A stretch of DNA of 64,000 nucleotides, from positions 1-64,000 of the forward strand of contig JAAELO010000848.1 in assembly GCA_024226555.1 (NCBI GenBank), written 5' to 3'. The notes beneath the pieces were generated by a model, which saw only the letters and a list, made by a program, of their open reading frames with translations, was not told where the DNA came from and searched no databases. The DNA comes from Desulfobacterales bacterium (GTDB taxonomy: Bacteria > Desulfobacterota > Desulfobacteria > Desulfobacterales > JAAELO01). Of this stretch, positions 17,942 through 23,277 are shown in pieces. How positions within the stretch are numbered: the stretch's first letter is position 1; every line of letters begins with the position of its first letter. Both the position numbers and the translations under genes were made by a program.

Positions 17942-18673
17942 ATGTATTTGATAAAAAAATTTTATCCAAGCATGCTAATCTTATGGTTGCTGTCCCTATC
18001 TATAACAGGCTTCGCTCAAAATAATTTGGTTATTACGGGGGTTCAAGGTATGTACCTTACCAAAATCTCTGAACCAATACTTCGAGAAGCTTACCAACAA
18101 CTTGACATTCAAATTAAAGTCAGATTAGCTCCAGGAGAACGTGCCATAACAGAAGCCAATTCCGGAAATTGGGATGGCGATTTGATTCGCAAAGCCGGTT
18201 TGGAAAAAAAATATCGGAATCTTGTGATGATACCCGTTTCTCTCGTAACCGCAGAGTGGGTTGTTTTTTCAAAAAAAAGATTTCCCGTTCATGGCTGGAA
18301 AAGTATTAGACCTTATAACATTGTAATTCAGCGAGGCCTTAGAGTTGCGGAAGATGGAACACATGGAATGAAAGTTATGGCAGTAACCTCTATTATCCAG
18401 ATGTTCAAAATGATCGACATTGATAGAGCTGATATTGCAGTTTCAACGCGTTTGGAAGGAACAATCACGATAAAAAAACTCGGATTATCAGGGATTAATT
18501 TACTGGAACCATCTTTACAACATTTCCCCCTTTATCACTACATCCACAATAAGCACAAAAAAAAAGTTCCTGAACTTACAAATATTTTAAGAAACATGGA
18601 GCAAAGGGGACGAATTAAAGCAATTAAAGAAGAAGTTCTCAATAGTCTATTGGGAATCAATATAAATCGATAG
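17942..18673 (+). CDS. Orphan periplasmic solute-binding protein (SBP_bac_3-like)
   Basis: A 243-aa exported protein: the first ~25 residues are a signal peptide (MYLIKKFYPSMLILWLLS...GFAQ). The mature part follows the type-3 amino-acid-binding protein layout (ITGVQGMYLTKISEPILREAYQQLDIQIKV; WDGDLIRKAGLEKKYRNLVMIPVSL; ADIAVSTRLEGTITIKKLGL). No ABC transporter permease or ATPase gene is nearby, so it may be a ligand-sensing protein or a decayed duplicate. An alternative upstream start is not favoured because GAAGGAGAA lies ~35 bases from the ATG and no in-frame start codon follows it closely. Its base composition is somewhat GC-richer than its neighbours. Another family member follows at 18771. 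Confidence 0.78.
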   Translation: MYLIKKFYPSMLILWLLSLSITGFAQNNLVITGVQGMYLTKISEPILREAYQQLDIQIKVRLAPGERAITEANSGNWDGDLIRKAGLEKKYRNLVMIPVSLVTAEWVVFSKKRFPVHGWKSIRPYNIVIQRGLRVAEDGTHGMKVMAVTSIIQMFKMIDIDRADIAVSTRLEGTITIKKLGLSGINLLEPSLQHFPLYHYIHNKHKKKVPELTNILRNMEQRGRIKAIKEEVLNSLLGININR

Positions 18674-18770
18674 ATCAAGATGTCTTTTTATCTTTGATTC
18701 TTCATGAACTATGAAAAAATATAGTGCCGTAGTCAGCTATAACTGAAATTATCTTTTTTAGAGGGTGAAA

Positions 18771-19565
18771 ATGGATAAAATTTTAGCCAGACAAGCCTTT
18801 ATGTATATTGCTGTATTGATGTCATTTATAATCGTTTGCAGTTCGGGAAAGAGTGTGGCCGCTGATGAGAAAAATATGATCGTCATAGCGAACGGTGAAT
18901 GGCAACCCTTTATTTCCAAAAACCTTAAGCATTACGGAGTATTCTGCCACATTTTGAAAGAAGCATTTGCCTCGGAAGGTGTAAAAGTCATATATAAGTG
19001 GGTTCCTTGGAATAGGGCATATGTGTTAACCCAACGAGGAGAGTTTGATGCAACGGCAGCCTGGATTCCGACCTCTGAACGAAAAAAACATTTTTATTAC
19101 AGCAGCACGATTCTGGTCAATCAAAAAGTTTTTTTTCATCTCAAAAGCTTCCGCTTTGATTGGAGGACCATTGATGATCTGCACGATATTAATATCGGTA
19201 TTGTCTTGGGATTTACCTACGGAGAGAAGTTCGATAATGCAGTGAAAACAGGAAAATTACAGGTGTTTAGAGAATCGTCAGAATCGAAAAACTTCTTTTT
19301 ACTGTTGAAAGGCAGAATTCAGATTTATCCTCAGGAAATTGATGCTGGCTATGCTTTTATTAATAAATATTTCTCGGAAAAAGCCGCATTAATCACCCAT
19401 CACCCGAAAACCATAATCGAAACAACCCATCATTTAATATTATCGAAACAGGTTGATAAAAACAGACGTCTTCTTGAATTGCTTAATAAAGGACTCAGAA
19501 GGTTAAAGGAAAGCGGAAAACTTGATAAATATCTCGAAGCATCAAGGCAGGGAAAGTATAAATAA
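18771..19565 (+). CDS. Orphan periplasmic solute-binding protein (SBP_bac_3)
   Basis: A 264-aa protein with signal peptide (MDKILARQAFMYIAVLMSFIIVC...SVAA). The body is typical of family-3 solute-binding proteins: MIVIANGEWQPFISKNLKHYG, ILKEAFASEGVKVIYKWVPWNRAY, FDATAAWIPTSERKKHFYYS, IGIVLGFTYGEKFDNAVKTG. I start it at ATG 18771 because GAGG (18761-18764) then sits six bases upstream; an in-frame GTG at 18765 is too close to that site. No transporter genes adjoin. Paralogous in type to the preceding gene (97 bases away) and to the one at 40419. Confidence 0.88.
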   Translation: MDKILARQAFMYIAVLMSFIIVCSSGKSVAADEKNMIVIANGEWQPFISKNLKHYGVFCHILKEAFASEGVKVIYKWVPWNRAYVLTQRGEFDATAAWIPTSERKKHFYYSSTILVNQKVFFHLKSFRFDWRTIDDLHDINIGIVLGFTYGEKFDNAVKTGKLQVFRESSESKNFFLLLKGRIQIYPQEIDAGYAFINKYFSEKAALITHHPKTIIETTHHLILSKQVDKNRRLLELLNKGLRRLKESGKLDKYLEASRQGKYK

Positions 19566-19823: not shown

Positions 19824-21569
19824 TTACTTCTTCTTTAAATTCCAAACCCCATCCCAGTTCTCTTTTGGAGGATTCTTTCTGAAAGTTGTAATTCTGTTCA
19901 AAATAATTTTAGAAGGTTTATCCGATGGTTTTATTTTTAAACAACTCTTAAATAATTTGACAGCATTATCCCAATCCTTATACCTATAGTATTTCAATCC
20001 TTCTTCGTAATATTTTTTTAATTTAAGAAGAGTATTGTTTTCATTGCTATTAACTCCTTTTTCAAACAGAATATCAAAAACCGTTAAACCCTCTTCAAGT
20101 CCTATTACGCGGATGGTATCAATTTCTCTTGTTACAATTTTATCAATAACAGCGGAATTTGCCATTTCGTTTATTAATGCCGGTACACCATATTGTTCGG
20201 CAGCACCATGAAGTCTTGACGCAATATTAACAGTTTCACCAATAACTGTATAGGATTTTGACTGGTTTGACCCCATATTTCCGACAATCAGGGAACCTGT
20301 AGAAATTCCACACCGAAGAGAAAAAAAATCTTTTTCTATATTTGGGTTATTCTTCTGAAAGTTTTTAAATCCTTCTCTCACAAGCTCTTTTTGTTTTAAG
20401 TGAGCTTTGCAGGCATGTATTGGATGATTATTTTCAGAAGTAAAAGGTGTACCCCAAAAAGCCATAATCATTGTACCTATAAATTTATCAATCACTCCTC
20501 TGGAATCATCAACAGCTTTAGACATAATTGAGAAATACTTATTAATTACATTAACCTGTTCATCTGCTGATAATTTCTCTATAGCAGTATCAACCTGATT
20601 AACATGACTGAACATAACAGTCATAATCTTCTTCTCACCACCAGTTGTAATATTTTTCTGGTTAATTAGATTTTCAACAACTCTTGGATCTACATACTTA
20701 CCAAAAGTTGACTTTATCTTATCTTTTAAGGCAAGTTGCTCCATCATAGTCTGGAAAGTAGCAGCTAACATTCCTATTTCATCATTAGTTTTTACATCAG
20801 GAAAAGTGTTATAATTTCCATTTTTTACTCCCTGCATTGCTGAATTTAGTATTCTTACAGGTCTGGTCAGTCCCCGTGTGAAAATAAAAGCAGTTAGCAG
20901 TCCGAGAAAAACAGCGGAAGCTGTAAGAACAAGATTTAAAACAAGAATATCTTTCTGGTGGGCATCAACTATATCACCAGTTTTTTTTGTATAGTTTCTG
21001 AGGCTTAGGTATATTGCATTGATATCCTTATCCAGATGGTCTTCCTCATATTTTATTTTCTCTTCAAGTGCATAGGCATCTGCTTTTCTGTTTTTTTTAA
21101 GGAAAGTCAAAACCTTAAGTACATGATCATGGAAATCCTGATGCTCTTTTTCAATTTTAACTAAAAACGGCTCCAGATTTTTGAAGTATTCTTTATCTTC
21201 CGGAATCGCAGATTTGCTTTCAGCTTCCTTAACAATCCTGATCGCTTTTTCTATCTCTTTATCAACCTTTACTCCTCTTTCATTAAATCCTTTAAATTCT
21301 TTATCTTTATGCTTTTTTGAAGTTTCATCCATTTCATATAGTTTGATTAATCTTTCATAGTGTTTTTCCTGCTCCAGAGTGTGTGTTTCAACAAGACTTA
21401 TCTGGTTTGTTACAGGTATTATATACTCAGATAAATTGAATAACTCTTTACTTACTTCCTTGATCTTCGAATAGGAAAAAAAAGCAACCCATATTATGAA
21501 AAATAATAAACTGGAAACAATAAAAAAAATTTTAATACCCAATGATATTTTGAATTTATTTTTTTTCAT
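19824..21569 (-). CDS. Class III cyclase-like receptor, C2-like half (metal-site aspartates lost)
   Basis: This 581-aa inner-membrane protein has TM1 (~11-31), a helical extracytoplasmic domain with EHQDFHDH (142-149), TM2 (~208-231), HAMP (~232-285), a class III cyclase domain (~312-490) and a C-terminal TPR-like tail ending WDGVWNLKKK. In the cyclase domain both metal-binding Asp positions are replaced (FSHVNQ, His322; FIGTMIM, Thr366), while the substrate Lys362 and the transition-state pair Asn448 and Arg452 (ETVNIASRL) are intact. Its start overlaps the end of the upstream paralogue by 14 bases. Alone it should be inactive; with the upstream protein it could form one composite active site, as in mammalian C1/C2 adenylyl cyclases. 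Confidence 0.9.
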   Translation of the reverse strand: MKKNKFKISLGIKIFFIVSSLLFFIIWVAFFSYSKIKEVSKELFNLSEYIIPVTNQISLVETHTLEQEKHYERLIKLYEMDETSKKHKDKEFKGFNERGVKVDKEIEKAIRIVKEAESKSAIPEDKEYFKNLEPFLVKIEKEHQDFHDHVLKVLTFLKKNRKADAYALEEKIKYEEDHLDKDINAIYLSLRNYTKKTGDIVDAHQKDILVLNLVLTASAVFLGLLTAFIFTRGLTRPVRILNSAMQGVKNGNYNTFPDVKTNDEIGMLAATFQTMMEQLALKDKIKSTFGKYVDPRVVENLINQKNITTGGEKKIMTVMFSHVNQVDTAIEKLSADEQVNVINKYFSIMSKAVDDSRGVIDKFIGTMIMAFWGTPFTSENNHPIHACKAHLKQKELVREGFKNFQKNNPNIEKDFFSLRCGISTGSLIVGNMGSNQSKSYTVIGETVNIASRLHGAAEQYGVPALINEMANSAVIDKIVTREIDTIRVIGLEEGLTVFDILFEKGVNSNENNTLLKLKKYYEEGLKYYRYKDWDNAVKLFKSCLKIKPSDKPSKIILNRITTFRKNPPKENWDGVWNLKKK

Positions 21570-23277
21570 AAACTCCTCCTCCGGATGAAATTATTGCGTT
21601 CACCTTGTTGTGATACAATAGAGAAGGTTTATCATTTTTATTGATTCTTAAGCAGTTCTTAAACTCCTTCAAAGCTTTTTCCCACTTTTTATTATGTACA
21701 GAAGATACTCCTTGTTGAAAAATATCTCTTAACTCTTTTGTTGCTTCCGAACACTCCCCACATCGACCTAATAACTCATAAGGACTCATTTTGTTTCCCG
21801 ATTTATTAATCGTAAGCCGACCTATTTTTCTCAATTCATACTTTTTATACACAAGTTTTGCCGTTTGTTCTGATAATAATATTTTTGTTCCGAAAATTTT
21901 ATTTGTCTGTTCCAGTTTTTCAGCCAAACCAACTGGTTTTCCCATAACGGTGTAGGACTGTAAATTAGTTGATCCAATGTTACCTGCAATCAAATCTCCT
22001 GTTGCTATCCCGATCCTTATATCGATAGACGGAAGACCTTTTCTAAGGTGCAAGAGGTCCGGTAGTCTTTTTCTGAGCTTTTCCAATTGTATAAACTGTT
22101 CAAGTGCAGCTTCACATGCAAGTGTTGCATGTTCATTCTCATCGCAGAAAGGTTCACCCCAAAATGCAGAAACAGCATCCCCAATATATTTATCTATTAC
22201 TCCCTGGAATCGAATAATTGGTTCTGAAGCAAGGGTTAGATAGTTATTTATAAGATTTACCAGGCCATCTGCAGTGAGTAATTCACTGAGCTTAGTAAAT
22301 CCCTCAAGATCAGAAAAGAATACAGTCATCGGCTTTTTTTCACCTTTATTTAACTGATTTGAACTTCTTTTGATCAGATTCTCAACAATTCTGGGATCAA
22401 CAAACTGACCAAAGGTATCTTTAATTCTCTCTTTTTCCCGAATATCAACAACCATATTATTAAAAACAGAGGTCATCTCTCCAATTTCATCATGAGTTGT
22501 TACAGGAACTTCAACGAATAGATCTCCATCTTCTACTTTTTTTGTTCCGGTAATTAGCGCACGAACCGGTTTCATTAAACCAATGGTCATAATTGTTGCG
22601 TAAAAAAGCCCAATTATTACAGCAACTATTACAATAATGATTGTGATTTTCAGAACATTTTTCTCATGTTCCTCAGCTGTTAAAACAGCACGTTCTGTAT
22701 ATTGGATAATTTCTACAAGAATTTTTTCCATCTCTTCATTAAGCTCATCTTCCTCTTTTTCGAGGTTCTCCTCAAGAATATGTGCAGTTTTCTTATTATT
22801 ATTTAGAAGCAGGTTAATAATCTTAATTGCGTGGTCGTGATAATTTTGATGTTCATTCTCAATATCTTCCAGGATGGTTTGTATGTTGGCAAATTCCAGA
22901 ATATCTTTTTTGGTATAAATATGGTTCAGTGCCTTTTTTGTTAATATCAAAGCCTTTTCAATTTCCTTATCGACAAGTTTTCCTCTCTCTTCAAAGGCAT
23001 TTTTTTCCTTCTCTATTTTGGAATAATTAATTGGTTTTCTTTCAAAATTGAACCAGATTCTCTCAAGATGAATCTCCTGTTCGATAGCATGAACACCTAT
23101 GTTTGTTATACGATCCTCGAGGGGAATCAAAAAATTAGAGATCTGTTCAAGCTCATTAGAAATCATTCCAATTCTAATATATGTAAACAGGCTCAGTGAA
23201 ATCAGAAGAATCAACATACTTCCGGAAACAGTCAGTATTTTTACCCAGAATGGGATCATGCCTTTAAACATTCTCAA
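21556..23277 (-). CDS. Class III cyclase-like receptor, C1-like half (transition-state residues lost)
   Basis: A 573-aa paralogue of the downstream gene with the same architecture: TM1 (~13-34), extracytoplasmic helices with NEHQNYHDH (141-149), TM2 (~210-235), HAMP, cyclase domain (~315-490) and a short tail. It retains both metal-binding aspartates (FFSDLEGFTKL, Asp323; YIGDAVS, Asp367) and Lys363, but the transition-state residues are replaced: the motif normally reading VNxAxR is VGLAEK (Gly450, Lys454). It is therefore the mirror image of its neighbour. Translation is coupled (14-base overlap). The conserved EHQ-x-x-HDH in both sensor domains could bind a metal or other ligand. I expect adenylate rather than guanylate as substrate (Lys/Thr specificity pair), with moderate confidence. 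Confidence 0.9.
   Translation of the reverse strand: MRMFKGMIPFWVKILTVSGSMLILLISLSLFTYIRIGMISNELEQISNFLIPLEDRITNIGVHAIEQEIHLERIWFNFERKPINYSKIEKEKNAFEERGKLVDKEIEKALILTKKALNHIYTKKDILEFANIQTILEDIENEHQNYHDHAIKIINLLLNNNKKTAHILEENLEKEEDELNEEMEKILVEIIQYTERAVLTAEEHEKNVLKITIIIVIVAVIIGLFYATIMTIGLMKPVRALITGTKKVEDGDLFVEVPVTTHDEIGEMTSVFNNMVVDIREKERIKDTFGQFVDPRIVENLIKRSSNQLNKGEKKPMTVFFSDLEGFTKLSELLTADGLVNLINNYLTLASEPIIRFQGVIDKYIGDAVSAFWGEPFCDENEHATLACEAALEQFIQLEKLRKRLPDLLHLRKGLPSIDIRIGIATGDLIAGNIGSTNLQSYTVMGKPVGLAEKLEQTNKIFGTKILLSEQTAKLVYKKYELRKIGRLTINKSGNKMSPYELLGRCGECSEATKELRDIFQQGVSSVHNKKWEKALKEFKNCLRINKNDKPSLLYHNKVNAIISSGGGVYEKK

Follow-up and report, generated by a model that had tools for sequence, protein, structure and literature searches.

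Class III nucleotide cyclases form their active sites at a dimer interface. In the mammalian transmembrane adenylyl cyclases (tmAC, class IIIa), the pair of metal-binding Asp residues belongs to one half of the enzyme (C1) and the Lys, the base partner, the Asn and the Arg to the other (C2); one pocket is active and one is dead. Both cyclase domains are fused with two 6-TM bundles in one chain, and the activity is under forskolin and G-protein control. Human soluble guanylyl cyclase (sGC) divides its active-site residues between two subunits: one carries the Asp pair, the other Asn, Arg and the residues for base recognition, Glu and Cys standing at the base-specifying positions. Because of this division, its homodimers are inactive (PMC3591389). 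In the chytrid RGC/NeoR system, membrane cyclases from a gene cluster form obligate heterodimers, and RGC1 and RGC2 retain all catalytic residues (PMC8815786). All three of these split-site or heterodimeric class III cyclases, tmAC, sGC and RGC/NeoR, were described in eukaryotes. A 2022 review describes the class III cyclases of bacteria as monomers that form homodimers, states that no bacterial fused dimeric form is known, and assigns the duplication that gave rise to C1 and C2 to an early eukaryote (PMC9552081). Our search of the open-licence literature found no published bacterial heterodimeric class III cyclase.

The DNA analyzed here (the window) is a stretch of 64,000 nucleotides from a Desulfobacterales bacterium. 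Its minus strand, to which all coordinates of the pair given below refer, carries two open reading frames, A (21556..23277, 573 amino acids) and B (19824..21569, 581 amino acids). An earlier sequence-only reading had reported these frames as overlapping by 14 bases (21556..21569), and re-reading confirmed both the frames and the overlap. The start codon of A is TTG, an ATG two codons downstream being equally possible. Upstream of B lies GGAGGAGGAG (21573..21582), which, read from the sequence, is a probable strong ribosome-binding site located inside the coding end of A. A promoter scan yielded sites no more numerous than in shuffles.

Both proteins consist of a first transmembrane helix, a four-helix sensor, a second transmembrane helix, a HAMP domain, a class III cyclase domain and a short tail, to which B adds a C-terminal NPP..WDGVW motif. 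The HAMP domains (A residues 234-280, 22438..22578; B residues 230-279, 20733..20882) score above the cut-off in both. The cyclase domains occupy residues 313-500 of A (Guanylate_cyc, 21778..22341) and about 312-505 of B (20055..20636; Pfam hit 315-459), and the PF00211 scores of the two proteins, 49.8 and 57.5 bits against a curated cut-off of 21.9, place both among the class III nucleotide cyclases. In structural models, each protein is predicted to have two long membrane-spanning helices around the four-helix region; the models show the class III fold, with CyaB (3r5g) and CyaC (1wc1) as the nearest structures, and at a pTM of only 0.48 their relative domain placement is unreliable. A and B are paralogues with 36% identity across 560 amino acids, from sensor through tail. 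Of the sensors, HAMP domains and tails, described as alike in the sequence-only reading, the tails are so only in part, since A lacks the NPP..WDGVW motif of B. This motif is present in all B proteins of the family described below and missing from most cyanobacterial A proteins as well; at the end of A in the window (21556-21620), the ribosome-binding sequence of B occupies the place of the lost motif.

The catalytic residues proposed in the sequence-only reading were all found as described. In particular, A retains the first (D323, 22309..22311) and the second (D367, 22177..22179) metal-binding Asp, and has G450 (21928..21930) in place of the ribose-binding Asn and K454 (21916..21918) in place of the transition-state Arg. 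Conversely, in B the Asp residues are replaced by H322 (20604..20606) and T366 (20472..20474), and the adenine-specifying K362 (20484..20486), the ribose-binding N448 (20226..20228) and the transition-state R452 (20214..20216) are kept. B also has the adenine-specifying T441 (20247..20249), and A in the window still retains its own Lys (K363). Alignments to cyclases of known structure, such as P. aeruginosa CyaB (3r5g), place the catalytic columns in the same way. Neither protein, therefore, has the two Asp, Asn and Arg that a homodimeric class III enzyme carries in one polypeptide: A lacks Asn and Arg, and B lacks both Asp. The combination of Lys362 and Thr441 in B is that of class IIIb, where Thr or Ser substitutes for Asp at the adenine position.

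The mammalian tmAC distribute their residues in the same way: the Asp pair comes from one partner, the second partner contributes Lys, the base partner, Asn and Arg, and one pocket is active and one dead. The C2 segment K938-T-I-G-Ser942 presumably has its parallel in the K-F-I-G-Thr of B, the second Asp having given way to a hydroxyl residue in both. In contrast to tmAC, the two cyclase domains are encoded here by two genes, each chain has two membrane helices and a HAMP domain, the base-site Thr is of class IIIb type, and the pair has its own duplication within bacterial cyclases; nothing points to control of A/B by forskolin or G proteins. With sGC alpha/beta the pair shares separate homologous subunits and active-site residues split between them; however, sGC is a soluble, NO-sensing animal enzyme that makes cGMP, whereas the Lys and Thr of B would predict ATP as the substrate. 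The chytrid RGC/NeoR differs in that essential residues are absent from both A and B. Finally, the bacterial CyaC, CyaB and OaPAC have the same fold, and the solved structures nearest to A and B in sequence and in fold are among them, but they are symmetric homodimers with two complete sites.

The pair is not peculiar to one genome and belongs to a small, patchy family. We identified seven further adjacent pairs, one in Desulfococcaceae bacterium HSG8 (G073) and six in cyanobacterial genomes. The HSG8 pair was the one second pair in a draw of 389 genomes of the order of the window. A contig scan of public genomes with B alone as the query gave no match; a second one with a B/B' profile detected three cyanobacterial pairs, in two Pseudanabaenaceae MAGs and in Leptolyngbya sp. 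SIOISBB, and follow-up searches added pairs in G796, G801 and G1207. Matches occurred in 1 of 336 genomes in the draw from the phylum of the window, in 1 of 386 in the draw from the cyanobacterial phylum, and in 4 of 65 and 2 of 6 genomes of two orders. One more A-type gene, in G798 (L131, 5319-7100, minus strand), has Asn replaced by Arg and Arg by Gln, and lies 244 bases from a contig end, beyond which its B partner is presumed to lie. The nearest outgroup consists of single-gene relatives from G033, found in a search of relatives, and from Rhizobium plasmids. These have the same sensor-HAMP-cyclase-tail layout as A and B, but carry both Asp, Lys, Thr, Asn and Arg in one gene; the Rhizobium plasmid relative, considered as another candidate pair, was rejected as a single complete gene.

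The two genes are adjacent and on the same strand in all eight pairs, and nothing else of their arrangement is conserved. The A gene comes first in the window and HSG8, the B gene in the cyanobacterial pairs. The genes overlap by 14 nt in the window and by 4 nt in HSG8, and at the other extreme lie about 100 nt apart, so that the overlap, to which the sequence-only reading had attached importance, exists in the window and was rejected as a feature of the family. No common partner gene was found in the flanks of the four pairs examined, which makes the pair itself the conserved unit. Beside the pair in the window there are two adjacent solute-binding-protein-like genes on the opposite, plus strand (17942-18673 and 18765-19565), the product of the latter matching SBP_bac_3; such genes were not seen beside the other pairs examined.

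The residue table covers the eight pairs and the extra A-type gene, i.e. nine A and eight B proteins. Both Asp are kept in all nine A proteins, and the base-site Thr is retained in them as well (9/9); Arg is lost from all of them (K, E, H, T, Q, K, K, Q, Y), Asn from eight and Lys from six. Among the B proteins, Lys, Thr, Asn and Arg are each kept in 8/8, the second Asp has changed to Thr in 8/8, and the first is lost in three (H, Q and Q). The sequence-only reading had named as its own counter-evidence homologous pairs whose residues decay without complementarity; instead, all eight pairs, from two phyla, show a C1/C2-type split in the same direction. As two co-inherited sister clades with complementary losses, A and B support its heterodimer interpretation at the level of sequence.

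Counting the Asp1, Asp2, Lys, Asn and Arg cells of this table, which are not independent of each other, the dispensable ones (Lys, Asn and Arg in A, both Asp in B) are lost in 34 of 43 cases and the required ones in 0 of 42. On the tree, at least eight loss events are needed (two each for Lys, Asn and the first Asp, one each for Arg and the second Asp), all in the dispensable half. The initial losses, Arg in A and the second Asp in B, are one event each, and a hand estimate gives them about an even chance of being complementary. The basic complementarity by itself is therefore close to a coin toss, and the weight rests on the later losses and on the retention of the other half; for all the later losses to fall on the right side, the chance is a few in a thousand (a hand estimate under a crude equal-rates null). 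As a control, we used 81 non-redundant class III domains from the loci fetched, 67 of them outside the pair family. Both Asp, Asn and Arg are kept in 67/67 of the latter and losses occur only in the A or B clade, and hence such losses are rare among relatives rather than background noise. In two cyclase domains (L026, 1021-2376, and L070, 4874-6256), the base is predicted to be read by Glu and Gly, a combination reminiscent of guanylyl cyclases.

Two more positions were compared. The Lys equivalent to K1065 (AC numbering), which B is expected to supply, is kept in seven of the eight B proteins, gone from most A proteins and variable in the complete single-gene relatives; the exception is B of the window, where Leu (L491) at this site is the sole contrary residue. 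The Arg equivalent to AC5 R484 was considered as an additional complementary residue, being kept in all A proteins and changed in six of eight B proteins, and was dropped, as many complete cyclases have Gly there.

On the phylogenetic tree, A and B form sister clades with support of 99/96 (A) and 100/97 (B), the single-gene relatives branching outside; with the catalytic columns removed, the support is 98/96 and 99/97, respectively. Separate duplications in each phylum were rejected, both for the window and HSG8 proteins as a clade (p-AU 1.3e-5) and for the cyanobacterial proteins as a clade (p-AU 3.4e-5), which implies one duplication before the split of the lineages and a pair that has travelled together. 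In two cyanobacterial comparisons, dN/dS is 0.10-0.15 in A and B, and 0.05-0.16 in the cyclase domains; these low values indicate that both degenerate domains are maintained by purifying selection. B of the window has a long branch, with 1.2-1.5 changes per column. Considering this branch and L491, the window enzyme could be weak or decaying, and the HSG8 or cyanobacterial pairs may be better examples of the family, given the fast evolution of the window B. In a tree built without tmAC sequences, A and B group with bacterial cyclases; from their sequence class and bacterial outgroups, the A/B split would be independent of the mammalian one and convergent on C1/C2.

Among the alternatives, the best survivor is that both proteins are pseudoenzymes, paralogous receptors that have lost catalysis and bind a nucleotide or another ligand, or titrate cyclases, their complementarity being a coincidence of which half was lost first. 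We consider this improbable. Essential residues are indeed gone from each subunit, chance alone would make the first losses fall in opposite halves about every second time, and the B protein of the window is fast-evolving and without its phosphate-contacting Lys; nevertheless, all of the loss events, at least eight, fall in the dispensable half and none in the half that either clade requires, the cyclase domains are under purifying selection, and the genes are adjacent in every pair. Still less credible is the possibility that A and B are active homodimers with unusual catalysis, A working without Arg and Asn and B with fewer metal ligands, in which case the genes would simply be duplicated sensors. 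Some class III cyclases tolerate changes in base recognition, and A of the window retains Lys and Thr; on the other hand, none of the 67 non-pair domains is without Arg, Asn or either Asp, and six different residues fill the Arg position in nine A proteins, which looks like lost constraint and not like a substitute. The least plausible proposal, that A and B do not pair with each other and each acts as a regulatory or dominant-negative subunit of another cyclase of the cell that is itself complete, can draw on six more class III cyclase domains in the genome, but these are on other contigs and match A/B from the HAMP domain or linker onward and not in the sensor, whereas the sensors of A and B match each other and the two genes have been inherited together in both phyla.

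By this sequence evidence, A and B are very probably the subunits of a class III (IIIb-type) adenylyl cyclase that works only as a heterodimer, in which one site takes ATP and the other is dead and remodelled. The explanation that we favor with high confidence as a whole is that a homodimeric cyclase was duplicated a single time to give this arrangement, and that the two genes have since been passed on together, by inheritance or transfer. Two helices, one on either side of a periplasmic four-helix sensor, would anchor each subunit in the membrane; the HAMP and cyclase domains come next, and the sensors would regulate the cyclase output. We infer that A and B associate physically and that one of the two pockets between them would bind and cyclise ATP, the substrate suggested by the class IIIb Lys and Thr. 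To this pocket A would give the metal-binding D323 and D367, and B would contribute Lys362 and Thr441 for adenine, Asn448 for ribose and Arg452 for the transition state. A-A and B-B dimers are predicted to be inactive, so that output would require the pair. Columns that separate A from B, being fixed or nearly fixed in each, include Asp367/Thr366, Glu453/Ser451, Glu456/Lys454 and Gln291/Lys291; of these, the Glu/Lys difference, two positions away from the lost Arg, might favor hetero- over homodimers.

The other pocket would be dead, with Thr366 from B and Glu453 from A; A also places either Gln or Lys at its Lys position there and offers no Arg. Fixation of residues in it (Thr366 in 8/8 B proteins; Glu453 in 9/9, Gln at the Lys site in 6/9 and Thr443 in 9/9 A proteins) suggests that it has been remodelled and not merely eroded. 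As these residues are newly fixed and not random, we tentatively propose that the dead pocket might bind a natural ligand of the bacterium and act in regulation, as a counterpart of the mammalian forskolin site, although we regard this as rather doubtful.

The predicted periplasmic sensor (20964-21383 in the window, B residues 63-202, and the matching part of A) contains a conserved His/Glu set, H63, E66, Q67, E68, H70, R73, E91, H143 and E176, present in 15-17 of the 17 pair proteins. Mostly missing in the single-gene relatives, this set resembles a putative metal-binding four-helix site.

The above analysis suggests that bacteria appear to have their own two-part adenylyl cyclase, having separately reached the C1/C2 working principle. 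A bacterial pair with a C1/C2-like split would be a second natural experiment on trading two sites for one, where the possible gains of a one-site layout include asymmetric sensing, a free regulatory pocket and control by subunit supply. The size of the two genes suits expression in E. coli, making the purpose of the dead site directly testable, and A/B could yield a split cyclase whose activity strictly reports association. If the dead pocket is regulatory, these enzymes would integrate periplasmic and intracellular signals.
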